From Branchiostoma floridae (taxonomy: Eukaryota; Chordata; Leptocardii; Amphioxiformes; Branchiostomatidae), in contig NC_049980.1 in NCBI RefSeq assembly GCF_000003815.2, positions 16,568,021-16,632,020 on the forward strand: a DNA stretch of 64,000 nucleotides, given 5' to 3'. Shown piece by piece: positions 18,688 to 35,925 of this stretch. Each line of letters opens with the position of its first letter. The first letter of the stretch is position 1. Both the position numbers and the translations under genes were made by a program. The notes beneath the pieces are model-generated. The model made no database searches and was not told where the DNA came from. It worked only from the letters and a program-made list of their open reading frames with translations.

Positions 18688-21600
18688 TTACGTGTAGAAG
18701 ATGATTTCTGGGATCTGTCCATCCTCCACTGATGTCCCGTTGTTGTTGCCGGCAGCGTACGTGAACTGGAAAATGACCTTACCGCTGCTTGGCGACTCGT
18801 GGATGACCTTCCGCATGCCTTTTGTTCCATAATGAGAATCAGGACCCTGTAATACAAGAAATGTAGGAAGCAATTCTATATCAATATCTATATCAATATT
18901 TATTTCTATATCAATAAAGATCTGATTGATTTTGATTGACCTACAATCACTGAATGATTTTCCTGAGGGTCTGCATGGGGGGTCCTGACAACGCTTTACG
19001 CTAAATTCAGGACGGTCGACTACGTTTTACGTTAAATTCCGAAGGCTGGCAACGCTTTACGCTAAATTCAGAAAGGCCGGCAACGGTTTACGCTAAATTC
19101 TGAAAGACTGGTAACACTCGGCAAGGGCGGGGGTATGCTCCGCCGGGAAGATTTTGAAATTTTGACTCTCTGAAACACCATTTCCTGCATTTTGAGGGGA
19201 AATTTTGGCTGGTAGACAAAGCTAATTTAAATGGCATATCTAATTAAAGATTCCCAGGGGTTTAGTGTAAGCCACCCAACAGATTTTTTTTACCATGCCG
19301 AGCGCCGAAGGGGCGAGGCGTCGCAAGGGAAGTTGTGAAATCCTGACACCCTGAACCGCGATTTCTTATGTTTTTCTGGCTATCATATAAAGCTGAGTTA
19401 AATGACATTTCTATCAGCAAAAAGGTGTTTGAGTTTGACATGTCACATCCCCCAACATCATTTTCAGAATTTCGAGCGCCGAAAGCGCGAGGCGGCGCAA
19501 GGGAGGACCATGAACATTTTGAAATCTTGACCCTCTAAAATGATATTTCCTGCATTTTATTTTTGATGGGCAAATTTTGCTGGCAGACTAAGCTAATCTA
19601 TAACTTCAATGACATTTCTATTAGCAAAAAGGTTTTCGAGGGCGAGGCCACCGATACAATTTTTACCATGTCGATGACCGAATAGTCGCAAGGGAGGTCC
19701 GGCAAAATTTTGAAATCTTGATCCTTTGAAACGCAATTTCCTTTGTTTTGAGGGCTAAAATTTACTGGTAGACTACGCTTCGACTTACGAAATTTGGGAG
19801 GCCAGACTACGATTTACGGGTAATTTTTAGGCTAGATTACGTTTTACGTAAAATTTTTGGGCTAGATTACGCCTTACGTGAAATGCAATGGCTACGCTTT
19901 ACAGTAAATTTTCCATCCTCACTACGAATTACGGGAAATTAAAAGGCCTGCCTACGCCTTACGGAAAAGAGCATGCAGACCCTCTTTCCTATCTTACCTT
20001 GAGAGTTGCACAAGCGGTGTAGCTGACGTTGGGTTGGATCTCCACAGGTTCCTTAAACATCACGCGGAAGGTGGCATCTGAGCCGTCACAGCTGAACCCA
20101 GTATCGTTCTGCCCCAGCACAGTCCCCGAGTCTGTCTGGATAATCTGAGGGAACAGACAAAAAGCGAGATGTTCTAATAGAGAAGTCTTGGACAATAGTC
20201 AGGCTTATTGCACACTTCAAATCTTGATACAGTTTTGACATCAGTCATAGACAGAGGGCAGGACTGACAAATATAGAATACATCATTGTATGTCCTTGCT
20301 TTTTTCATTTATTATAACATTGGGTTTCTCACCAGTCTTAATGCTACGGGTTGACCGTTCAGCATATACACCCTCATGACTTCCACGATAACTTTACATT
20401 TCATTGCTCCTGAAATCTGCCTGTCTTTCACAACCTCAACATACATGTACTTTCCTCAGAGAACACTGACCTGGATGTTGACTTGGTAGTCAGTGGGTCC
20501 ATGAATGGATCCATACAGACCAAACCCAACAACAAAGATGTGTCTGTTCACCACAAACCTACAGGAACATAAATAGGCATTTCAGCATGTTTCAGCAAAA
20601 TGTCACTCCATTCTTTAACATTTGCTGCAATATTCTACTATATTTCTAGACACAAATATTGACATGAAGATATGAATATTCAATAATGACTGGAATATTG
20701 CTTGAGGATATATTATGAAATACACAAAAATATAAGGAAGTTCATAAATGACTAAAAATTCATGAGATAACACTGTAACTTTTGTAAATATTTCCACTAT
20801 ATAAACTACTGCAATTGCACAGTACTATTTACTCTACAAATGTTTTCTATTTTGACAAGAAATGGTTAGAAGTGAGCTGTAGAATTGTAGTCGTGCAGCC
20901 TGGGCCACAAAGCCATTCCATGGGTTATCCCCACATGTATGAATGTGACTTGTGCACAAAGTTGTACTGACCTGATGCGATCAGAGGTCCCACTGTACCC
21001 CCAGCGACTCTCCACCTGCTGGAAGCGGTTGATGGTCTGCTCCTTCCCTGTCAGACAGCACCGCGGTGAGTCCAGGAATTCCACCGGAGGTTTGGGGTTC
21101 ACCGTGAAGTGTAGAAATAGACTGACGACCTCTCGGTCCGTCAGGATCCCGGACTGCGCCGGACCGGAGGCAAACTCTTCGATGGTCATGAGAGGAAAGC
21201 GGATGAGGCGCAGGGCCTGTCCCAGCGCACGGCGCTTGTTTTCCGGGGTGGCGGCCAGCTGCTGTCTCTGGCACTCGTGCTCGGCCCACCTGACAACGGC
21301 GACGAATAACTTGCACTCGCGGATTCCCAGGGTGTCTCGCTCCAGGACCACATTCAGCGTGTCCAAGTCAATGTCCACGAAACCCTCCGCTGCAAGAGCT
21401 TCTGAAGTGTTCTTGTCAATCGTCTCCAGGCAAAGCTGGGCCAGTTGTGGCTCATCAAACAGACGGGCCTGGGTCAGGAGCATGAAGGCGTTGTCGCTGC
21501 TCAAATTCTTCTTAAGAAAGTCCACACATGCCGACTCTAAGGCAGGAACGGCATACTTTTTCGCAGTATAAAGCGTAGTCATGACAGTTTCTGGTCCAAT

Positions 21601-22677
21601 CTGAACTTCGTCGGAATAAAGGAAACGTAGGAGAGCAAGGAAAGCAGCAGGCTCTACGTCTGGCAGCTCTACTTCAGCTGAAGTGGTGGCCATGCCCCCG
21701 TTAAACATGGCATCAAACACTGCACTACCAATGGCCAACACAAACTGCAGGAGAAGGGAAAGAACTCTGGTTATGTCTCTTTTACATGTAGACAAGATAA
21801 AGCATTCCTATAATTGTACTTATCTGTTTTAACTGTAGCTAACAGAACCGTATTTGACAGACGACAAACAAAAAAGAAAAGGAACACCTTAATTTGAATG
21901 ATTGACTTTGTTCCAGGTATACAACTATCCTATGCTATAATACTCAGATCTAAAAGAAGAAAAACACATATTCATCTAGCTAGGTAGGTACATGTTTGTT
22001 GCAATTTTCTGATTCTGAGACACAATATTACTTTACAGAAGTGACTACAGTAACATGTAAATGACAGACATACAAGACTGCTCCCAAATGTAAAAACTTT
22101 CTTATTGGTAATGTCAGTGACCCAAGCTGTCATCACATAGCTTTCCATGTTTGGTATTTCCACCTCTTGCACGGTTGATTAGCGATAATTGTCATGTCTC
22201 AAGTTATATTTTGGGCAGTATTTGTCTGTTTGTCACTAAGATAACTCAAGAACCTGCTGGATGGACTGGTTTTAAATTTTGCATGTGAGTATGTTGTAAC
22301 AGAAACTGTAAAATATTGGATTATAGGCTTTCCTGGCAGCTTTCCACAGTACAATTTCCTGTTTCTTCCACCCATTACAAATAAATGAAATCATCTTCTA
22401 CAATTATATAAATATACAAGGCCCGACACTAACAGGCTTTGTGGCTTTCAACAGACATACTCCAATAGTTTTGATAAATGTGATAGCTTCTGGAGGGCTC
22501 AAACTGTGTTCTAATATCATCAGTGTCTCATCTGTTGCCTACCTTGTGTGCAGGGATCCTCTGCATCCCTTCACCGCGGCCCACGATGAAGTGCACATCG
22601 CTCATCACTTCATTGTTAAACATGTAGGCAAGTCTGTCCTTCACTGTGGTCTTGCTAGCCTGCCAGTTGTACATGGG
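18688..22677 (-). CDS. BTBD2: BTB/POZ domain protein, BTBD1/BTBD2 type
   Basis: Five exons on the minus strand: 22677-22543, 21744-20972, 20558-20471, 20144-19998, 18846-18688 (stop TAA). All joins are in phase and give about 433 residues. Order: BTB domain (MYNWQA..., [47 protein letters not shown]), BACK domain ([29 protein letters not shown]), then a PHR domain ([35 protein letters not shown], ending [11 protein letters not shown]). This wording is that of vertebrate BTBD1 and BTBD2 rather than BTBD3/6, so it is probably the single pre-duplication orthologue. The family are cytoplasmic-body CUL3 adaptors reported to bind topoisomerase I. The true N terminus is unresolved: the first exon seen starts with an acceptor (TTTGCAG) two residues before MYNWQ, and an upstream exon may lie in the 23.85-kb gap. 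Confidence 0.9.
18965..19984. mobile_element. 1.02-kb element with 13-bp TIRs, subterminal motif arrays and internal tandem repeats
   Basis: The left end GAGGGTCTGCATG is repeated inverted at 19972-19984 and flanked by direct TTTCCT (18959-18964, 19985-19990). Both ends carry runs of a CTACG-n-TTACG-n-AAATT type motif (about 4 left, 7 right) in the same orientation. The middle has four degenerate copies of about 185 bp, marked by GAAATCTTGACCCTCTGAAA-like words near 19155, 19335, 19520 and 19710. No protein is encoded. It lies in the last BTBD1/2 intron, 11 bp beyond the donor of exon 4. Confidence 0.7.
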
Positions 22678-22689
22678 CTGCAAACAAAC

Positions 22690-24133
22690 ATGCAAACATT
22701 AGCACACTTGTCAACAAACATATCATATTTCTCGTCTATTTTCGCCCTGTATTGTAACTCATGTCAGAATGGGAAATTGTCTGTGCATGGTCACACATGG
22801 CATCAGAATAAAACATCATACAACATGGAATCTATCCAAGCTCATACCTCCTGCAACAGTGACCCAACAACTCTCACCAAACTTCTGTTACTTATGCTGG
22901 TATTGTAGGTATTGTATTGTATTGTACAACAGTATTCTTCCACTTTCACTGATGTCACAATTCTGTAGCACAGTAATAACTAGCAACACATTGGAAATGC
23001 AAAATTCACAAAGTCGTCAATTTACGAAGGAAATATCACAATCAAAAGCATGAGAATATAACAAACACAAACATGTCAAGATCTTTTTTTGCCAGGAACT
23101 GTCTGTTGTATGCTAGGTTGTTAGTTGTTACAGACACAAGTTCATGTGTTGGCTTGCACTGTTGAATCACTGCCAAGAAACTACAGAGGAAATGGGCATC
23201 TCTATTTCTGTTACATTGCTCACCCAGTCCCCCTAAATGATGAAATCAAATTAAACCAAGGAAGACCAACTCCTACCAGACTTAAGTCAACTTAGATTTG
23301 ACGAAGCTTGTATTACATTTACAATGTACATTTAGCAACAGTTGCATCCTTGTAAAGTGTACAAATGTACATCACCATTGCTCTACTGGATATTGACTTT
23401 ATTGTACATCATGTGTATGAACAAACTAAAGTCTATAGGTATAACTTTCAGGGGTGTATGAAATATCTAATTTTGCTAAGAAAGAAATATCATGTAGATA
23501 TCATTACCATTGTATTAAATCTCAAACGTACTATTCTTAAATTTGTAATGTTTAAGTTAGTCTGAGTATTACCTTTGAGTCTATGACAGCTGTCAATGTG
23601 CGCTGTTTTACAGTGTACAGGTAACGTTTACTGCACATTAGCTACATGTGTGTGCTGTTTTACCTTGATATGTGTGTAGTTTGTGCTTCTTTGTCTGACT
23701 GTATGCTATATATGCTGTTTTACCTGGATATGTGTGCTGCTTTACTTGAATAAGTCCTGTGTATGGTGCTGTTCTTCAAGGATGTGTGCTGTCACTGTCA
23801 GTATCAATAACTCCTGTGGTAGGTTTATGGCATGATCGCAACAANNNNNNNNNNNNNNNNNNNNNNNNNNNNNNNNNNNNNNNNNNNNNNNNNNNNNNNN
23901 NNNNNNNNNNNNNNNNNNNNNNNNNNNNNNNNNNNNNNNNNNNNTATGTGGATTGATTTGATTCATTGCTTTTAAGAAACACCAGTGCTTTCCAACTTCT
24001 TTAACTGTACATTTTACAGGAAAAAATTATGCATTCTTTCTACTTATCAAATTATGTATCGAAGTACTATGGAGACACCTGGAATAAATGTGTCCATTAT
24101 CTGTTTTGAGTTTTTTTATTTTATTTATTGTAG
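22690..24133. other. Intergenic sequence with gap; possible missing first exons
   Basis: Between the first visible BTBD1/2 exon and the first visible DUF6589 exon, which are divergent. No coding exon is recognisable. A degenerate short repeat (TGTGCTGTTTTACCTGGATATG-like words cut into about 50-bp steps) spans roughly 23600-23760. A run of exactly 100 N at 23845-23944 could hide the first exon of either gene. Confidence 0.4.
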
Positions 24134-27100
24134 TCCACGGTTTGAAGACAGAGGCAACCCTCCAAGCACGTCGTCCAACATCTATCCAACCAGTCCTCCA
24201 AGCACGTCCAACATCTATCCAACCAGTCCTCCAAGCACGTCCAACATCTATCCAACCAGTCCTCCAAGCACGTCCAACATCTATCCAGCCGGTCACAACA
24301 ACACATACTTTCCATCCCCCATGTACCAGTTTTCACCTTACGTAAATCATGGCATCTCCTCTCCACTGTTGCATCCTCCATCTCCAGCCTACCATATGTC
24401 ACCAGGAGTAAATGCCCAGTTTCATCAGCCATCGACCAGCTATGCCCAGCCAACTGTTAGCTTACAAGCGTTTCAACAAATGGAGGACAAGCTGAAGGCA
24501 CAGCTATCAAAGATGAACACACTTGTTGAGGAGCAACAAAAAGAGATCCATGATTTAAAGACTTACAGTAAGGCCAGCATCGATGCTGTTAAAAACACAG
24601 CCCAAAAAGAAGTCAAGTCACTTGTGATGAAGGATACCATTTTGACATACAATGCAGAGACTGCAACTGACATTGCGAATATGACACCACAGTCCATGAA
24701 AGAACAGGTGAAAGAGGAAGCACCAGTTTTCTTCGAGCTCCTAGAAAACTGCATCAAAAGCGATGTCCCTGGGGACAAGGACACCTCAATGTTGGCATTT
24801 CTCAATCTTTGTTCCATTGCAAACAACAGAAGCAAGCGTGCCAATGCCATACAAATGATCACCACCCTGTCACTCATCTCGAGGTCAACAAATGTGCAGG
24901 TATGTTTGCATTGATACTTAAGCATTCTTGAGATTACATAAGATTGTTTAACCCAGTGTTAATTTGTGTCACTCAGTCAAGACATTTTGTATGTTTCTTT
25001 GTCATGTGGCATGTCACTTTCTTTGAACAAAAAACAGATGCGTACATGTATTTCCAAATCAGGGTTATGAGGGATTCAAAATGTATTGAAATCTTTTTTT
25101 ACATTTCCAACAATTATTCATCCCTATGTAGGGGTGGGTACCGGTACAGAAAATTCGCGTCCAGGTCCGGTTCAGGTCCAGAGGATCAGGTCCAGGTTCG
25201 GACCTGAACCTGATGCAGTATGACTCTAGTATGACTCATACCAATGGCCCATTTCACTACAAAGAAATCTGTGTGGTAGAGTATTAGACTAACACTGGCA
25301 TTTTAAAATTCTACAACGCTAACTGCACTTGTAGGATTGGCTGTAAACTAAAACTTGGTAGAAATTGCTATAAACTTTACTTCACTCTTGTTATTTTCTT
25401 CCACCTGCAAGCGCCAAAACGTGTGAATGCCTGATAAAATAATCTGTTAATTTTCTAATCAGCCCAACATCCGGTCCTCCTAATTTTTTCTGGACAGGTC
25501 CAATAAGAAAAAAAAGGGATTGTACCGGTACACTGTACCCTGCCTAATTCCTATGTAAACCATTGGCTGTTTTTGCAGGTCATCTCCATGCTGAATTCCA
25601 TGGGTGTTGCCAGTTCCTACAAGGCAGCATGGAATTTTCTGTCCAACTTTGCTGAAATGCAGGGGGCAAAGCACCTGGACAACAGCAAGCCTTGTATTGT
25701 CTTTTTTGACAATGTTAACATTCTCAAAAGAGTGGGACATGTGAGGATGGGTGAGTCCTTAAATTGCACAAAACAGTTGTTTCACTTTAAATAAACTATG
25801 AAATGAATTGTAAAACAAGTTGTACTGTCAGATTCTATACTTTATTCTTGTGAATAGAAAGGACAGAATATTGCTAGACTGATGATTATCTCATTACCTG
25901 TATGTCTGTTTGTCTAGGGAAACAAAACGAGATGTTTAATTGGACAAGCCGGTTGGCAGTTGTGGTAGAGCATGAAGATCCTTCAGCCAGCAGAGAACCC
26001 CAGGTAACACAGGACATCTTCATTCATAGTTATGTTCGAAATGTGCTAAGCAGATACATGTAGTAGATTGAAACTGTCATATAATATGTATAACATAGTA
26101 CACTTTATTTACAGTTTGTGCTTTATCATAATCTGAGCACAAGACCAACTACCCTTTAATAAAAAACAAACATTGTGTCAATGTGTATCTTTCACAATAA
26201 ATTACATTTTGGCTATTTATATTTCAATTTGTAGGGCAAAAGAGAGGACCTGTCTGATGCAGACATACTGGCTGACAGCAATGACATAAGTGACCTCAAA
26301 AGCAGATTAAAGAATCAAGTGAAAGCTATAATAGTTGAACATTTCCCAAGCTTCCATCAGTTTAAAGACAGTGTAAGAGCTCCATCCAGCCCCTTGCCAG
26401 TTAAGAAAAGTAGCATCACCCCGCTGCCACTGATGGACAAGGATGAGTCGAAAAAGGATGATACAATTCAGATTCTGCTCAAATTTGCTGAAGAGCTACA
26501 GCTGTCTGACAACATAAAAGACCAGGTACGATATGTAAACATGGAGTCCCAAGTGTGGTAACAGAACTATCAAACATGGACAATGATAACAATAGTAGTA
26601 GTGTTGACAGTAATAACAATGTTTATGGAAATCTATTCATTATATAATTGTATACTTTTTATGAGATGTATCAATTACTTATACATGATGTTTGCCCATC
26701 GGGTGTCAATGGAGATATGACTTCCGAATCTACGGAACTTATACATATTACCTTATAAATGATACATTGGTTTTGCTGCTATTAGGCAGTCGTCGGCGAC
26801 CAGGCGACTTGCAAAAACATCCGTGGAGGACGAGGATGGAGAGAAGGCGAGGAGGATCCTGTTCAGCTGTTACAGTGGGCAAAGGAGAGTCCAGGTAATG
26901 TATTTCTTCTATGCTTTTAAAAAACAATCACAGTACATGTATTATGTTGCTAAGAAGGAAAATGAATATCTTTATGTGTATTGCTGACTCACATAATATT
27001 TGTGTATGAACTAGTGTGTCCTATTCTGCATAACAAATGCTACTTTTGATAATAGGGGTTGTAATTGCTCAAGTGTACAATAATAAATTGTTTTGCTAAC

Positions 27101-28580
27101 TTTTTTTGATTAACAAATGTCTCCCCCCCACCCCTTTTGTTTTTTTCATAGGTGACTTTCACTTTGTGTGGGAGGCCCTGAAAACAGCTACGCTGTGCTG
27201 CTGGGGCCTGGCCACAGAAGCAGGCTCTCTCTCACAGATAAGGGTTGCCATCAACCGGATGCGGGCGGACAAGGAGTGTAAGAACTTTCAAGTTTCTGAC
27301 GAGTTCTTTTGCCAAAGAGGAAAGGACACATCCTAGCTGCCCTCACAGTTTTCCTCGGTCTGGAGTCACCTCAGGAATCCTACAACTGCACCTCTCCCCA
27401 TGACTTTGACTCTATAGCTTCAAAGTTTGTTACAGAAGTAGTGTTTCCAGGCCAGTGGACTGAAGACAGTGACCAAGTGCAGACCAGAGCACGCTTCATG
27501 TTGTACCTGGGACTGCTCTACCTGGACTTAAGGACAGCAGTAAGGTAAGTTGCTTCTGTTACCTACAAGTCATTTTTTAAATCAATAGTATGTACAAGAG
27601 CTATGTACAAAGTGACAAGGAGTAGTACAATAACACAAATGTACTTTGTGATATCTGTATTGATGTGAATGGGATGATGTATGATAAATACATGTCAATT
27701 TGTTTTGAAAATGTTGTCCTGATCCAGATACCAAATGGGTGAGGCTGTAATCCAACATTGGAAGGTCTGGTTTGAGCTGTTTCTGGGGACAAAGAGGAAC
27801 AACTACGCATGCGAGGCTGCCAACCTTCTCGCCAATCTGAAGGCTGACTGGTCCCCGTATATGGCCTACATCCACACCCACAACCGCTGTGTGAACATCA
27901 CGGGAGAGGAAGGCAAGGGCAAGCCGATAGACATGCTTGGAGAACACCACAACAGGTACATGTTATTATTTATCTTGTATTGTACAAGTGTATGATTTAC
28001 TTGCTGTGAGTAAATGTTGACTATTTGACTTTGAGCCTTTAACCATAACCATACAGTCAAAAGGACACTTATTAATATTAATGCGTGAACTTTTAACCTT
28101 CACAGGACCATCAAGCAGACATGCCGTGCAGCTGGGGGACGACTAGAGTTCAAACACGCCCAGGACATAAGTCTTTCTGTGCAGCTGTTTGACGCCGCCA
28201 AAAACTTCGCAGACAGCTTGTGTTCTAAGAAGACTACACACCACACAACGACATCTGCAGAAGTGGACATTCAGTCAGTAATGACAACAGTCTTAAAACA
28301 CGAAGTGTATCACAACAAACCAGGGAGGAGCTTGAACCCTGAGTGGTTGGACCCACGAGCTGTTGCAAGAGAGCGACTGTACGACAACAAATGGCTGGCA
28401 AACTTTCTCACTCGTGGAAAGCAGGACATCTCTGACGATACAGAGCCACCTGAGTCCCCGGATGCTGATGACGGAGAGACAGACGAGGACAGCGCCGAAC
28501 AAGTTGAAGTCAGAGACGAAGAGGATCCTGAGTGGGAGGAAATCGAGGACGCTGACCTTATCAACTTAGACCTAGCATAA
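24134..28580 (+). CDS. DUF6589-type transposase-like protein (one frameshift)
   Basis: Exons 24134-24899, 25579-25750, 25918-26003, 26235-26525, 26786-26894, 27152-27544, 27728-27955 and 28106-28580, all in phase except for one lesion: a base appears missing at about 27300-27320, where DEFFCQ must continue into KGHILAALTVFLGL one frame back. About 840 residues plus an unseen start. Order: Pro/Ser/Thr-rich tandem repeats, a coiled coil (EDKLKAQLSKMNTLVEEQQK), then a core with VISMLNSMGVASS, CIVFFDNVN, VVGDQATCKN, DFHFVWEALK and HILAALTVFLG, and an acidic tail. The FDN, GDQ and DFH motifs fit the DUF6589 family as I know it, found in fungi and invertebrates and thought to be transposase-derived; the Asp residues may be RNase-H-like metal ligands (inference). 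It is convergent with the RecQ-type gene. Confidence 0.65.
24158..24291 (+). repeat. 33-bp coding minisatellite, 4 copies
   Basis: Four successive 33-bp units encode PPSTSNIYPTS (the first has one extra TCG codon, the last reads PAG). The period is a multiple of three, so the frame survives copy-number change. It forms the low-complexity N-terminal part of the DUF6589-type protein. Confidence 0.9.
25131..25549. mobile_element. 419-bp hAT-type MITE in a DUF6589-gene intron
   Basis: Flanked by a direct 8-bp repeat CCTATGTA (25123-25130 and 25550-25557), the duplication length of hAT elements. The ends GGGGTGGGTACCGGTACAG and, inverted, AGGCAGGGTACAGTGTACC are imperfect TIRs, with CCGGTAC shared near both ends. 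The interior has tandem GGTCCAGGTTCGGACC-like words and no coding capacity. Confidence 0.65.
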
Positions 28581-28649
28581 GGTTAGTACTCTTGTCTCTT
28601 TCATTTGTACATGTACTACATTCGCTCATGTACAAATGAAAGAAACCCT

Positions 28650-28842
28650 AGGATCACACAATGAAGGTCCTGCAGGAGTACTGTCCAACAGTGCAATAAA
28701 AACCCAAGCCCAAAGCATCCAGAAAGGTGAACATAGAAAGATGTTTCAAAAGTATCCACGATTTAGTATGAAGAAAATAGCACCAATCATTCTCAACAAT
28801 ATTGGCGAGAAGTTTCCCAAACCTATCATTAAAAATAATTAG
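28650..28842 (+). pseudogene. Inverted, decayed copy of the RecQ-gene 3' end
   Basis: The plus strand reads GPAGVLSNSAIKTQAQSI, then KKIAPIILNNIGEKFPKPII and a stop at 28840-28842. The minus strand just beyond (29071-28847) reads GPAGVISDSAI-IS-IKTQAQSI and DIAPFILDKIEQEFPEPII. Similarity is visible in the DNA too (GGTCCTGCAGGAGT, AAAACCCAAGC, CAAAG-ATCCA). The two stop codons face each other 4 bp apart. It has no helicase domain and is probably non-functional, unless it serves as 3' UTR of the DUF6589-type gene. Confidence 0.7.
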
Positions 28843-28846
28843 CTAA

Positions 28847-29125
28847 CTAAACATTTGTCAAATCCCCAAGGGCCCTTCTTCTTCTCTTGATGATAGGTTC
28901 AGGAAACTCCTGTTCAATCTTGTCAAGAATGAATGGTGCTATGTCCTCTGAAACACCTTTAACCTTCTTACACAGGTCTTCCACTGTGTGGATACTTTGT
29001 GCTTGGGTTTTGATTGAAATAATTGCACTGTCGGAAATCACTCCTGCAGGACCAACATGTGCAATCCTCATGTCGTCTTCAAAAAGCTCATTCCTCAGTT
29101 CGTACAGGCTTTTTTCCAGTTTTTT
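28847..29125 (-). pseudogene. RecQ-gene C-terminal extension beyond a premature stop
   Basis: In the same frame as the helicase and directly after its TAA, the reading continues KKLEKSLYELRNELFEDDMR and on for 92 codons to TAG at 28849-28847. A facing inverted copy preserves much of the same peptide, which argues that this was once coding. The stop sits in an A-rich stretch (GATTAAAAAAAACTGG), so it could be a genuine mutation, a polymorphism or a base error. Confidence 0.6.
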
Positions 29126-31629
29126 TTAATCGCCTTCCTGTCTTTTCTTTTTTCTGGTCGCAGCTGCCCTCTTTGCTGTCTTGTGGACCCTGGGATGCAG
29201 CAGGTACGCTCCCCGTGGTGCTGTGGCCTCCTCCTGGCAGACAGAGCAGCAGTGGTCTGTGTCTGCCGCCTGACTGCCAAGTTCCTTCAGCATCACAGCG
29301 CGGATGCAGGACCGCTTGGCCACGAACTGCTTCAGGCAGTCTTCAGCGTCTTCCTCTTCCTTACACTTGCCAGCAAAGACGACAGCAGTGGCTGGCTCCC
29401 CTGACCTCCCAGCCCGGCCAATCTCCTACAGAAGTAAAAGTACAGTAGCATTAGCTTAGACTTAAGTTTCATTGCTTTCAAAACGTTGTAAAATATATAG
29501 AGAGTGGCTTTGTTTGAGATCTTACCACTTTTGATGTAATACAAGTGAGCATGACCTGATAATTAAACCGATGTAAAATAACTGATAAAGGAAGAAGCAC
29601 ACTTCCATGGAAAATACCCAGATTTGCTAAGTTTAACATAGCAGAAGCATGCATATTGTATTATGTCTTCTATTTGGTTGGTATCATCATGAATTATGTA
29701 TGAGATTCTCACCTGGTATAGCTGGCTCATGGACTTTGGCAGGCCATACACCACAACACAGGAGATGTCAGGGATGTCAATGCCCTGAAATTGTTATTGT
29801 AGAGTTTTAAGAAACAGGAATGTTTTCAGAAATATATATTTTTGTACAATAGCTAGAAATTAGTACATGCAAAATAATGTGTTTGAAAATATGGCAAATT
29901 GTTTGCCAGCATGCAGTTATAATGTCACTTAATGCTGTTAATTAAGAACCATTATGTACACTTACCATCCCAAAAGCCACTGTAGCCACAACTACCCTGA
30001 CCTCGCCATCCTTGAAACGTTTAAGGACTTTGGCCTTGAGGTCAGGGCTCATGGAACTGTGGAAGTAGGCCACGGATGCTTTGAACCTGTCTCCCGCATG
30101 GGCCTGCAGCATCTTCCACACATCCATGGCCTGGTTTCTTATAGGCACATAGATAAGCTGCTTCTCGATGGCCCGTCCATCTTTCCTTAGGGCCTGCAGT
30201 AGTCCCAGGAAGTCCTTCTGAAATTACCAGTTATTACATACGTGCGTTAAGTAAACTGTGCATTGAATAAGTGCAGATACAAAATGGTTTCCATAAAGAT
30301 ATGGTATGCACAGTTGTCATGTTTTTCATATACATGTATCTGTTAATGTAATATGAGAAAAGATAGGTGAATTGAAGTGTTTCAGTTACCTGCATTGCGA
30401 TCTTTTTCTTGGAGACCAAGAAAAGATTTGGTCTGTCGAGACTCCCACTGATGTGGATGTTCCCTTCCCGAAAAAGAAGATCCTTCTTGATGCCTTCCAC
30501 AGCATTGGGGGAGGCAGAAGCTGTGAGGGCCATGACTGGGGTGTTGAGACAGTGGGCCCTCAGTCCGCCTATCTGTGCAAATGCTACTCTGAAGTCGGGA
30601 CCCCTGAAACAGATTGTATATACAGTACTATTAGAACTATGCCAAAACTTATTATGTCTACACATAGGCACATCTAGATAGAGGCAATACAGTTGTAGTA
30701 AATCATTTAGCAACCTGTTTAGTTTTAACAAAATTGCTACACACCCTTTCTCTGTCACTTGAAAGAATTAAATCATTCTTACCACTCAGGGATACAGTGG
30801 GCTTCGTCCACGACAAGGGCACACACAGGTCTAGTTGTGGTGAAAATGCCCCTGCCCTCTCCCACAGCAACTTCTGGGCTGGTGTATACTATAGAAAAGT
30901 AATGAGAAAAAAATTATAAGCAAAAATATACCTATGTTTACGAGTATTTATGTAACTGTAACTTACAGATTTCTGTGGTAAATTAAATCTGTATAACAAG
31001 GTTCAAGATAAAAGAGAAATGACAGGACCGTGGCTACAATATATTTTGTTATTCTTGTCTAGCAACTGGTGTAAATAGGATAACTTGAAATAAAAAGGAA
31101 GTACAACAAGTGTGATACATACCTAGTTTGACCGACTTGTCTGCCACTGTGTTGATGTCGTTCGCCGACTTCAAGTGAATTGCCTTGTATCCCGTTGTAG
31201 TGGTGTACCGGGCGATCTGAAATGAACGGTAAGTGTTCTCATTATTTATCTTCAGCGCTTCCGCAGAGTGAAGAGTCTCTTACAATTCGAGTAAACATTC
31301 AGTTATCCTTGGTTAGTGAGGGAGGGGGGCGTAACTCAGGTCCGCCGCCGGTAGGCATTTTATGGAGATATATACAATATAAAATTTACCTGGTCATCGA
31401 TGAGTGCTGTCAGGGGACTGATGACAATCACAAATGGCTCGTCAGAGTCCAGGCACGACGGAATCGCCTGGAAACAGAACGTCTTTCCAGCTCCGGTCGG
31501 TAGCCCGACAAACACGTCTTGGCCATTTAAAATACCCAAAACAGCGTCTGCCTGGCCCTGTCGCAGTGTGTCGTACTCGAAAACATCTTTGCCAACACGG
31601 CAAACGCGGTCCATCAAATTGGCTTGCAT
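29126..31629 (-). CDS. RecQ-family ATP-dependent DNA helicase
   Basis: Seven exons on the minus strand: 31629-31390 (ATG at 31629), 31216-31123, 30888-30783, 30603-30390, 30217-29966, 29784-29713 and 29425-29126. All phases fit, giving 425 residues to the TAA. Helicase motifs in order: LRQGQADAVLGILNGQDV (Q/0 motif), Walker A GLPTGAGKT, FVIVISPLTALIDDQ (Ia), VVDEAHCIPEW (II, DEAH), MALTASAS (III), VRVVVATVAFGMGIDIPD (V) and YQEIGRAGRSGE (VI), then a Cys cluster (RSC...DHCCSVC) like the RecQ zinc module. RQC and HRDC domains are not seen. It unwinds DNA 3' to 5' by family knowledge. The small size, neighbour and broken tail fit the multicopy RecQ-like genes of invertebrates rather than BLM, WRN or RECQL, but this is inference. 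Confidence 0.85.
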
Positions 31630-33060
31630 AGCCACCAGAGTAAATACAAGTAGTTACCAGATTAAACACGCAGTCATCAAAATAAACACTGTCAAAATGG
31701 ACCGTTACTTTGAAAATTTCATGTGACCTTTGACACTTCCGGTCACATGTGACAGGATCGTCGCTCCCGCTTGGACCGTCACGGGCGAGTCGGAAAGCAA
31801 TAAAAGTGTTATTTAGCCACTTCGCACCTATCAGATAGCGATTAGTGGAGATCAAACAAGGCACCGGGATACCACAGACTCCGACGATCGCGTGCTGTTC
31901 CCTGGCCGGTTATATTCCTCTGGCCGGCTTACTCCTCTGATTTGTTACATTTCTACGATTTTTCCAGCGATCCGGAGTCTGGTAGAGACTAGAGTTCATC
32001 TATCTTTTAACTGTCCCGTGTTCTGTGAAATAGGTGGGGTTTGTGATTTTAATGAAACGTAGACTTTTGGTGATTTACTAATTGGCAAGCGCTCGGACAA
32101 ATTGTGGCAACAGTTTGAAATAAACTTTCTTTCGGTCCCGTCGTGAAAACATTTTCCACTGCATTCAGTATGCAATACTTAATTATAATAAACAGTCTAA
32201 CGTGGACAAATAGCTTCTTATAACGACCTCTCTATCTCTAATGGATAAGCGCTTATTCTTATCTTAGATATGGCGGATCTTTATTCGAACTCAGGTAATT
32301 TTCCATCGAATATATATTTGGATTTGAAACCTTTGTAGCATATTGGCTTACCATGATTTGTAGACGATTTGTAAAATAATTTTTGACGTACATATCCTCT
32401 CTTTAATTAACAATGTACATATATTCTTATTGTCTACAGGGTAATTGGTGTTCCATAAGAGGGAATATCATGAAAGTTGGTGTAACCAGCTCTTCTTGCA
32501 ATTATTTACCATTTTGTATTGTTGACACAGTAAAACGTTCACCTGTAAGGGATGTGTGTGGATGTCCAGTTGCTTCAGCCTCAGCCAATACTTAGGTACA
32601 AGAACACTGATACATCCATATCTATTTGGAATACCCCGAGTTTTGCCCTACTAGCTAGGTTACACGAATTTCTGTGTGCACTAAGGATCGGTGTTTTTAC
32701 AAAAGCGGTTCTATATGTTAATATTTCAACAGGGCAATTGTCAGTGCCCTTTGCCTCAGATCTCAACAGAATATAACATTGTAGACTTGACATATGCATT
32801 ATCGTGTTTAAGTAGGGCCTTAGGGAATAACGCAGTCTGAATGAGGGTTTTGATACCGAAAGCGGCTTTCTGTGCCTTTCAAGACAGTTGATTTAGCTAA
32901 AGAATAACTGCCTGACGAGGACAGGCCTGGATAAAGAGCGTCATTTGGAAACTTGATGTTCCTGAAAGTCCATCCCAATTTTTTTAAAACCACCACTTTA
33001 GTTTTCTTTAGTATTGAATCTTCCATTTCATGTCCAGTGCACGCAAACAAAACACGCTTC
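31630..33060. other. Upstream region of the RecQ gene
   Basis: No coding exon recognised. Includes an imperfect inverted pair, CAGACTCCGACGATCGC near 31873 and GCGATCCGGAGTCTG near 31968, enclosing repeated CTGGCCGG words, which looks like a small fold-back element. A minus-strand frame at 33098-32820 reads protein-like in places (CTGHEMEDSILKKTKVVVL) but has no start or splice support. Confidence 0.4.
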
Positions 33061-33064
33061 TCTA

Positions 33065-33258
33065 CGTCTACGGCGACAGTGGTGTCCTGTCTGAACATGC
33101 ACCTGCATGATCATGAGTCGTGGGAAATTCCCTGACGAGGTGACGGCCCAAAACCCCCACGCCTCTACGGCGACAGTGGTGTCGTGTCTGAACATGCAGC
33201 TGCATGGTCATGAGTCATGGGAAATTCCCTGACGAGATGACGGCCAAAAACCCCACGC
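33065..33258. repeat. 97-bp tandem duplication
   Basis: CGGCGACAGTGGTGTC begins at 33071 and again at 33168. The following 80 or so bases, including GTCTGAACATGCA, GGGAAATTCCCTGACGAG and ACCCCCACGCCTC, are repeated with few differences. Confidence 0.85.
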
Positions 33259-33284
33259 CTCCATACATGATCGTAAATGCGCGA

Positions 33285-33675
33285 TTTTATTTTTACAAAA
33301 ATGAATTTATGACGATTGTGAATTAAAGAAATGTGGGATTTTTTTTAAAATTGCAGATATAACGACAGTGAATGAAAGACATGCGGGATTTTTTTTTTCG
33401 AATGCCAATATGACGACTGCGTATGAAAGAAATGCGGGATTTTTACGAATGCGATTAGGACGATTGCGAATAAAAGAAATGGGGGATTGTTTACAAATGC
33501 AATTATGACGATTGCGATCGAAAAATGTGTGATTTCTTACAAATGCAAATCTGACGACTGTTAGTGAAAGAAATACGGGATTCTGTATGGATGCAATGAC
33601 GACGACTTTGAATTAAAGAAGTGTGGGATTTGTTACAAATGATGACGATGGTGAATGATGAAGACATGTGGGAAA
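33285..33675. repeat. ~48-bp degenerate tandem array, about 7 copies
   Basis: Units carry TACAAATGCAATTATGACGA and end in GAAAGAAATGCGGGATTT. The GGGATT word recurs at 33335, 33385, 33436, 33483, 33529 (variant), 33577 and 33625, spacings 46-51. Divergence between units is high, so the array is old. Confidence 0.8.
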
Positions 33676-35925
33676 GAAATGCTACTAGTTATAGCAGCAC
33701 CCCAATGAGTCCACACAGTATAGTCAGGACCGTAATTGAACTGAACATAAAATGGACATGCAAGAGAATGATTTGTTTTTCCGGTCATTATTTTGATCGC
33801 AGCTACCAGTAGTCTACCAGAATCTGGTACCGATGATGACTAGCGTGTATGTTGGTTGACAAAGACATTGAGAAATGATTGTTTCTAATAGAAAATTTAC
33901 GGGTGAGCAGTGACGCTTGTACGAGGGAGTTTCAAACTCTGGCGGCATGACAAATCCCCGGTGAGCTTATCTAAAGGTGCCCTCTCACTGCACTTGCGTC
34001 ACTGCGGGGTTTGTTCACTGCGTTACTGTTTTGCTATTTTCTCCGATATATTTCAGAATTTAGATATTGCGTAATACGTAAAAGTATGAAGACGACAATT
34101 TTACGCTATATTTTGAGATGTTGACAGCAGAACTTGCAACAGCTAGACAAAGATTAGCCTGGATGTCAGACGGCTTCCAACTTCTCGGCTCAAGGGCTAA
34201 CATGTAGTCTCCACCAGACTGACTACGCTGGCTGTTATAGGGAGAATACTTTGCCTGGGAAGTTTTGCTACCAGAGGCTTTGGTCGGCCGCGTAATCCCA
34301 ACCTGATTTAACCTAATAGCGTGTACTGATTCCCCTGGCCAATTTCCCGATTTTATTGCCGAATTTCACGATCCCTGGACCCACGTAGGAAGGTGTAGTC
34401 TACCCAGCATGCTCCGACTAAAGAAATTCTACAACAGACCCCCCAGTTATATTTTACAGATACGTTGATATGTTTATCTTTTTTTAGCAGAAGTGTTCTT
34501 GATGCAGGTGCCTATAGAAGAGTCCATCCTCACACAGGGAGGGGCAATCGTTTAAATGCAATTCTGGACAGGGTGATTATGCGAAGTCCGTTCTTTGATG
34601 AGAGGAGCTGTAATTGAACGGGTCCAGTTTACATGAAGATAGCGCTACAATACTCCATTACCCTGCGAGAGAGTCATTTTGCTAAATTTAATTTTGGACT
34701 GGAGTGCTTAGGCAAAGTCCATTTTATTTTAGAGAAAGTGTTTCTAAACCAGTGCATTTCACATGTGGATGCTGGCCAATGGAAGAGTCCATTCTCGCAC
34801 AGTTAATTTTTAGCCTGAATAAATCTCGCTTAATCTGATTAAATCTCGCTGTATAGCAGCCCGCCCAACATCCGCCGGCCCCCTAGAGGAGGGGACAGTT
34901 ACAGCCCTGGACAGCGGAGTTTGCGTTGCACAGACTAAGTTAATTTTTGAGCAGAAGGATTATTGAACTGGTCCACTACATTGTAGTTGTCGACACATGT
35001 CACAAGAAAAGTCCATTCTCTTTTTAAAGATTCAATCTACGAATTTGATGATAATGCATAAGGAACTTCTTTGGTAGGGCTCATGCATAGTCCATTTTTA
35101 ACCGGAAGTGTTTTTAACGTCAATATTAATATTTATGTTAATTTATCCCGCATAAATTACTCACACGCAAACCTGTATATATATTTGCTGCAACAGCTAA
35201 TATTTAACTCTAGTTGCTCTAGCGACTCTAGCCACAGTCAAAGATACAAGTATAGCTGTACTGATGTCCAACAGTTATGTATCTAAATGTTTTAACTTTG
35301 TGATTTTCTTTTCTCGTTGGAAACAAACTCCCTCAACGATAGATTTGATGAGAAATTCGCCTAGTGCATGTTTTGTTCAGTTTTGACCTCTGACCCTCAT
35401 ATGCATACAAAACAGATTTTAGTGTTAGGCTGCTTTAGTTTACCGCATTGTAACGCCAAGAGGCCGGAAACAAAGGTTTAATGAAAGAAGTTTGCAGTTA
35501 AACCAATTTCAGAACAACTGAATCTGTATTTTTTTCAATATTCAATACTATACTATCATAGTTTCCAAGTTTGTACCAGAAAGTGTTGCTAACTCCATAA
35601 CAAAGTACTGTACTTACTCACGTTACTGAAATTTTTACGTTAGTTTTATGTTTGTGTTTTTGGTGGTGACAGCTTAAGTAAAAAATTAAAACTATTGTTT
35701 TCATTCCTGCCCAGTATGTGAATACGATATTTTTAGTTTTACACTCCACTTTCTTCCTTCTGCAAACTGCATCATGAAATTGCAGTTTTATCTTGATATT
35801 GTGTTTGCAGCATAAATATCAATATCTAGTTGTAGAAAATAGTGCTACTGCAGCTAGTATGCAGTTTTATGAGTTTCATATGTTTTAACAAAACATTTTT
35901 AATTTACTTTTCAGGGTCTAGAGTC
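33676..35925. promoter_or_regulatory. WTAP upstream region and probable 5' UTR
   Basis: No coding exon is recognised. The first coding WTAP exon begins with an acceptor (ACTTTTCAG, ending 35913) 12 bp before the ATG, so a non-coding 5' exon and the promoter should lie upstream in this interval. Their exact position is not visible. Confidence 0.35.

Follow-up and report, generated by a model that had tools for sequence, protein, structure and literature searches.

The convergent DUF6589 and RecQ helicase genes found in the window (the whole 64,000-nucleotide stretch analysed, C2:16568021-16632020) are best explained as a decayed AcademH-like cut-and-paste DNA transposon, with DUF6589 as its DDE-type transposase and RecQ as an accessory helicase, a reading to which we give a probability of about 0.87. 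We infer the catalytic roles of both proteins. The original prediction of a two-gene mobile element is supported by copies that have the same inverted repeats and 8-9-bp target duplications, retrieved from a genome of 513 Mb in 431 contigs.

Structure and limits of the element

In the window, a multi-exon DUF6589 gene encoding a putative DDE transposase (23946-28580, + strand) faces a RecQ helicase gene (28847-31629, - strand). The distance between their stop codons is 266 bp (28581-28846), which confirms the convergent layout and the spacing of about 270 bp proposed at the outset. The DUF6589 gene was delimited by its translation, splice sites, PF20231 match, motifs and a genome scan in which the window scores twice; its exons lie at about 24134-24899, 25580-25751, 25919-26002, 26235-26526, 26787-26896, 27154-27546, 27729-27956 (the exon matched by PF20231, 4.2e-14) and 28107-28580. 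The RecQ gene was defined by its exon map, by comparison with a copy on contig C17 and by the RecQ domains of its relatives; its exons lie at 31629-31390, 31216-31121, 30889-30782, 30602-30390, 30217-29966, 29784-29713 and from 29425 downwards. This copy of the element is broken, since both genes are interrupted: DUF6589 lacks its 5' end and has a frame break near 27300-27340, and RecQ has a premature stop near 29126. The C17 copy does not have this stop, and the main RecQ exons of the two copies share 94-97% protein identity.

The inverted duplicated segment predicted at the 3' ends is real. Located at 28594-29068, it consists of a 419-bp imperfect palindrome centred near the RecQ stop (28650-29068; 65%, E 1e-20) and of a second palindrome of 53 bp (28594-28646), both detected by self-BLAST. 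It is also present in the C17 copy, to which it gives an inverted match, and self-BLAST did not detect it in the relative on C298. Therefore, it is seemingly dispensable for the DUF6589-RecQ unit. Three other features were observed in the window: an apparent small nested element in DUF6589 intron 1 (25129-25545), with ends GGTACCGGTAC...GTACCGGTACACTGTACCC and CCTATG flanks; two copies of a 91-bp segment, 97 bp apart, after which come seven tandem units at intervals of 46-51 bp (33067-33629); and a frame with a BTB-BACK domain (20866-21807, - strand).

Comparison with the C17 copy gives the limits of the element. Over about 8 kb in all, the two sequences are 99.1% identical at 27957-31991 and 97.4% identical at 23979-27416; the homology starts at 23946, stops at 31991 and gives way to divergent sequences beyond. 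Homology to a copy on C7 also stops at 31991-31992. The right terminal inverted repeat consists of the last 17 bases, GAGTCTGGTAGAGACTA, of the right terminal region (31887-31991, - strand), and the element thus extends beyond the limit of 31629 first given to the pair. On the other side, the C17 copy extends about 1.3 kb past the start of the window homology, to a left end where the inverted partner TAGTCTCTACCAGACTC precedes tandem repeats of about 81 bp, after which there is a run of N. These subterminal repeats (L041) could be multiple transposase-binding sites. In the C17 copy, a probable first coding exon lies 5' of the sequence kept in the window, and the start at 24134 originally proposed for the DUF6589 gene has to be moved further 5'. 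It is the only other long copy of the window family that we found; its DUF6589 gene is partly lost and its flanks show no matching target duplication.

In the window, the left end of the element coincides with a 100-N assembly gap (23845-23944), where the left terminus and the probable first coding exon are missing. Compared with the whole window, the terminal 109 bp matched only themselves and, at chance level, 16 bases at 34205-34220, without any partner. The inverted repeat is not visible in the window because the left end falls in this gap. By the rule derived from other copies, the right flank GAGTTCATC (31992-32000) is expected to be one copy of a 9-bp target duplication, and the left junction inside the gap is predicted to read GAGTTCATC then TAGTCTCTACC.

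Mobility of DNA carrying these ends

The ends of the window element also bound deletion derivatives and short copies. For instance, in an 800-bp derivative on C7, the left terminus is fused to 713 bp of the right end, RecQ exon 1 being among the sequences kept, and the whole is flanked by the target duplication GCCATATAT. Another, on C6, is 612 bp long and has an 8-bp target duplication. To these two we added 20 short copies, picked from terminus matches showing both ends or parts of both. The perfect 17-bp inverted repeat is found at both ends of the C17, C7 and C6 copies and of 15 of the 20 short ones. Exact 9-bp duplications flank 14 of the resulting 22 copies (among which L051 and L052 are not independent, being 11 kb apart with like flanks), exact 8-bp duplications flank three, and 9-bp duplications with one mismatch flank two. 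In the last three, the duplication is absent or unreadable: one has a flank of N, one has an end that was not found and one shows three mismatches. Common outer ends and target duplications, which the original prediction had proposed to seek at other loci, were therefore both found there.

Furthermore, the terminal 132 bp gave at least 63 matches in the genome (from the best 40 of 834 candidates scored), and the exact 19-base terminus occurs 868 times, its reversed control giving no occurrence. Among 100 listed termini, 25 neighbouring pairs are inverted and less than 3 kb apart, 15 of them spanning 185-215 bp, and two other neighbouring pairs are not of this kind. DNA carrying these ends has thus been mobile. 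In addition, 33 places match only the first RecQ exon (query about 2-67 or 19-96) with 36-46% identity; other families may have left there non-autonomous derivatives that retain RecQ exon 1, as the 800-bp copy on C7 does.

A second family is represented by an 11.5-kb element on C1 and C7, 98.8% identical over two main blocks. If CACGCTC...GAGCGTG are taken as its ends, each copy has, by eye, its own 9-bp flanking duplication, TGGTTGGTT or CGGTACCTT; both duplications end in TT, so that they could also be read as 7 bp by placing the left end two bases outwards. It encodes convergent open frames, one of 1266 aa for DUF6589 with ankyrin repeats and one of 708 aa for RecQ with RecQ zinc-binding and RQC domains. 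Hence, unlike the broken window copy, some copies have long open frames. Inside DUF6589 (L043:1835-5632, L049:1936-4524), the ankyrin repeats occupy about residues 754-840 of 1266 and separate the first D motif (near 438) from the second (near 894); other families instead carry a C2H2-like finger, located in the C-terminal part of DUF6589. A third family, on C9 and C10, is 99.6-99.8% identical in two blocks and has a common right end, GAATGGTACCCAGGCTAA. No left end was found in the DNA examined around its copies, and it was excluded from the solved elements. The flanks differ between copies in both families whose ends were examined, the window family and the second one.

These data bear on two other explanations. 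The short terminal-repeat elements could be moved by an unrelated transposase, the gene pair being present in a copy by accident. This would fit with the recovery of only two long copies of the window family, both broken, against 868 termini. However, the second family has different ends, and these likewise enclose a convergent DUF6589-RecQ pair and are flanked by 9-bp duplications. Moreover, every frame longer than 160 aa at 23946-31991 contains exons of one of the two genes, although a third gene could be present in spliced form. We therefore consider an accidental association unlikely. Even less probable is that two neighbouring host genes were copied together by segmental duplication, as might be proposed from the 97-99% identity of the C17 copy over about 8 kb and its lack of target duplication. 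Indeed, the 17-bp inverted repeat where this identity ends is also the limit of short copies flanked by 8-9-bp duplications, the terminus is found hundreds of times in the genome and, in two families, copies do not share their flanks.

Pairing and history of DUF6589 and RecQ

The interpretation as a two-gene transposon was also examined at the scale of the whole genome, where merged hits gave 47 DUF6589 clusters and 76 RecQ clusters. The input comprised all 55 hits of the DUF6589 scan, 97 of 102 RecQ hits and 13 of 33 hits of a further search; the five omitted RecQ hits lie inside clusters already counted and the 20 others omitted overlap or adjoin RecQ hits. RecQ is found within 15 kb of 23 of the 47 DUF6589 clusters, against 0.2 expected at random. 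Among these 23 pairs, 19 are convergent, four are on the same strand with RecQ upstream and none is divergent. DUF6589 and RecQ thus recur as a unit in this genome. The convergent pairing that the original prediction had suggested recording at other loci is common, but 24 clusters have no RecQ match within 15 kb, which is evidence against a strict two-gene unit.

At least one unpaired DUF6589 cluster may be an artefact: C9:3203492 has 1198 N in the middle of the element and is a 99.6-99.8% identical copy of a paired element. Seven unpaired hits lie in frames of at least 1000 aa and may constitute a second lineage devoid of RecQ. In the one examined, a frame of 2762 aa (L081:785-9070, in C6:26072000-26081999), DUF6589 is associated with a GDSL esterase and with a weak match to CXC (Tesmin/TSO1). 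Conversely, 53 of the 76 RecQ clusters are unpaired; some are weak matches to exon 1 only, and others are presumably host RecQ genes.

The history of the two genes was compared in 19 of the 23 pairs, over 71 columns for DUF6589 and 181 for RecQ (179 residues for the C16 RecQ). The four others (C17:4.13M, C7:19.62M, C9:3.06M and C6:14.88M) were left out, their DUF6589 part being deleted or unmatched. DUF6589 and RecQ protein distances are strongly correlated in Mantel tests, both with all 19 pairs (r 0.93) and with 14 non-redundant pairs (r 0.89), with p 0.0001 in each case, the minimum possible with 9999 permutations. The two trees share the clades C9/C1a/C298/window (support of only 0.55 in the DUF6589 tree), C298/window, C10a/C18, C10b/C11a (0.76 in the DUF6589 tree) and C16/C6a, as well as the ankyrin group and the same-strand trio. 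C7a is placed differently in the two trees, and the window group has the ankyrin group as its sister with DUF6589 (0.97, on 71 columns) but the same-strand trio with RecQ (0.95). The match between trees that had been proposed as a check is thus obtained for distances and not for the deepest branches. This disagreement is evidence against the two-gene unit; it possibly results from an old exchange of one gene or from error on 71 columns.

Placement among known transposons and putative role of DUF6589

Transposons carrying a helicase have already been described. AcademH (Kojima 2020, as cited in PMC10045372 and PMC10799480) is presented there as an Academ (DDD/E) transposon with a helicase; its target duplications are quoted as 9-10 bp (PMC10045372) and the title of the cited paper reports it from animals and fungi. 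Like AcademH with its helicase, the window element has RecQ inside its termini, and the commonest duplication in the window and second families, 9 bp, is within the range quoted for AcademH, whereas three of the 22 copies have 8-bp duplications. Our assignment is based on helicase and duplication length, and we accordingly use "AcademH-like" rather than AcademH, a membership that homology of the transposase would define.

The XPG nuclease is the mark of AcademX. A genome search for XPG_I retrieved six places, none of them near DUF6589, and a link to Academ through XPG was rejected. One of the six, on C15, has a 386-aa frame on a contig without a DUF6589 match; this frame resembles a FAM120-type host protein. 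Among the viral contigs, 17 pattern matches included no relative.

Kolobok transposons were also considered. KolobokH is described as carrying RecQ and as found only from fungi, and Kolobok-1_CCri as having RecQ on the complementary strand. Like them, the window element combines a DDD/E transposase, here a putative one, with RecQ, in the same orientation as in Kolobok-1_CCri. However, Kolobok target duplications are given as 4-bp TTAA (PMC9587614), and a RecQ-carrying Kolobok of either layout is hardly credible here, since the length and sequence of the duplications (8-9 bp, non-TTAA) exclude this identity. KolobokP, reported in three Branchiostoma species, also combines two genes on opposite strands (PMC9587614), but its second gene is a His-Me finger nuclease and the element has long terminal direct repeats (LTDRs), whose solo copies are described with duplications mainly of 3-4 or 4-5 bp (PMC9587614).

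The window DUF6589 contains the motifs FFDNVN, VVGDQA and MLGEHHN. Patterns [FY]DN[VI] and GD[QG] were found in seven and nine, respectively, of 19 scanned stretches, many of which cover part of the gene, these patterns being loose enough to give chance matches too; the E motif falls within a block in which 19 members align. Such recurrent D, D and E motifs are compatible with a DDE active site. A PDB profile search with the C-terminal part of DUF6589 gave eight matches up to E 10 (best 0.028), all to zinc fingers or to chains named forkhead.

In the proposed AcademH-like transposon, the DUF6589 protein would bind the terminal and subterminal repeats, excise the element and insert it into target DNA; a 9-bp stagger at this step would account for the 9-bp target duplications. 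RecQ, from what is known of RecQ biochemistry, would probably act on the ends or on repair intermediates, unwinding them to allow completion of excision or gap filling. A broader and rather doubtful proposal is that the whole of DUF6589 forms a transposase superfamily separate from Academ and still uncatalogued, which would have largely co-diversified with its own RecQ and would carry lineage-specific modules (C2H2-like finger, ankyrin repeats, CXC) in or beside the catalytic core.

With AcademH and KolobokH in print, the layout is less unusual than it was first thought to be, and the main gain is the likely function of DUF6589, of which we found no mention in the literature searched. A likely function can thus be offered for a Pfam family of unknown function, whose members may be listed as host genes in genome annotations. 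Furthermore, these results warn that some RecQ-like genes in such genomes are transposon genes. Finally, natural gene pairs, with long open frames in one family, are now available to investigate what makes a RecQ helicase necessary to a cut-and-paste transposon.
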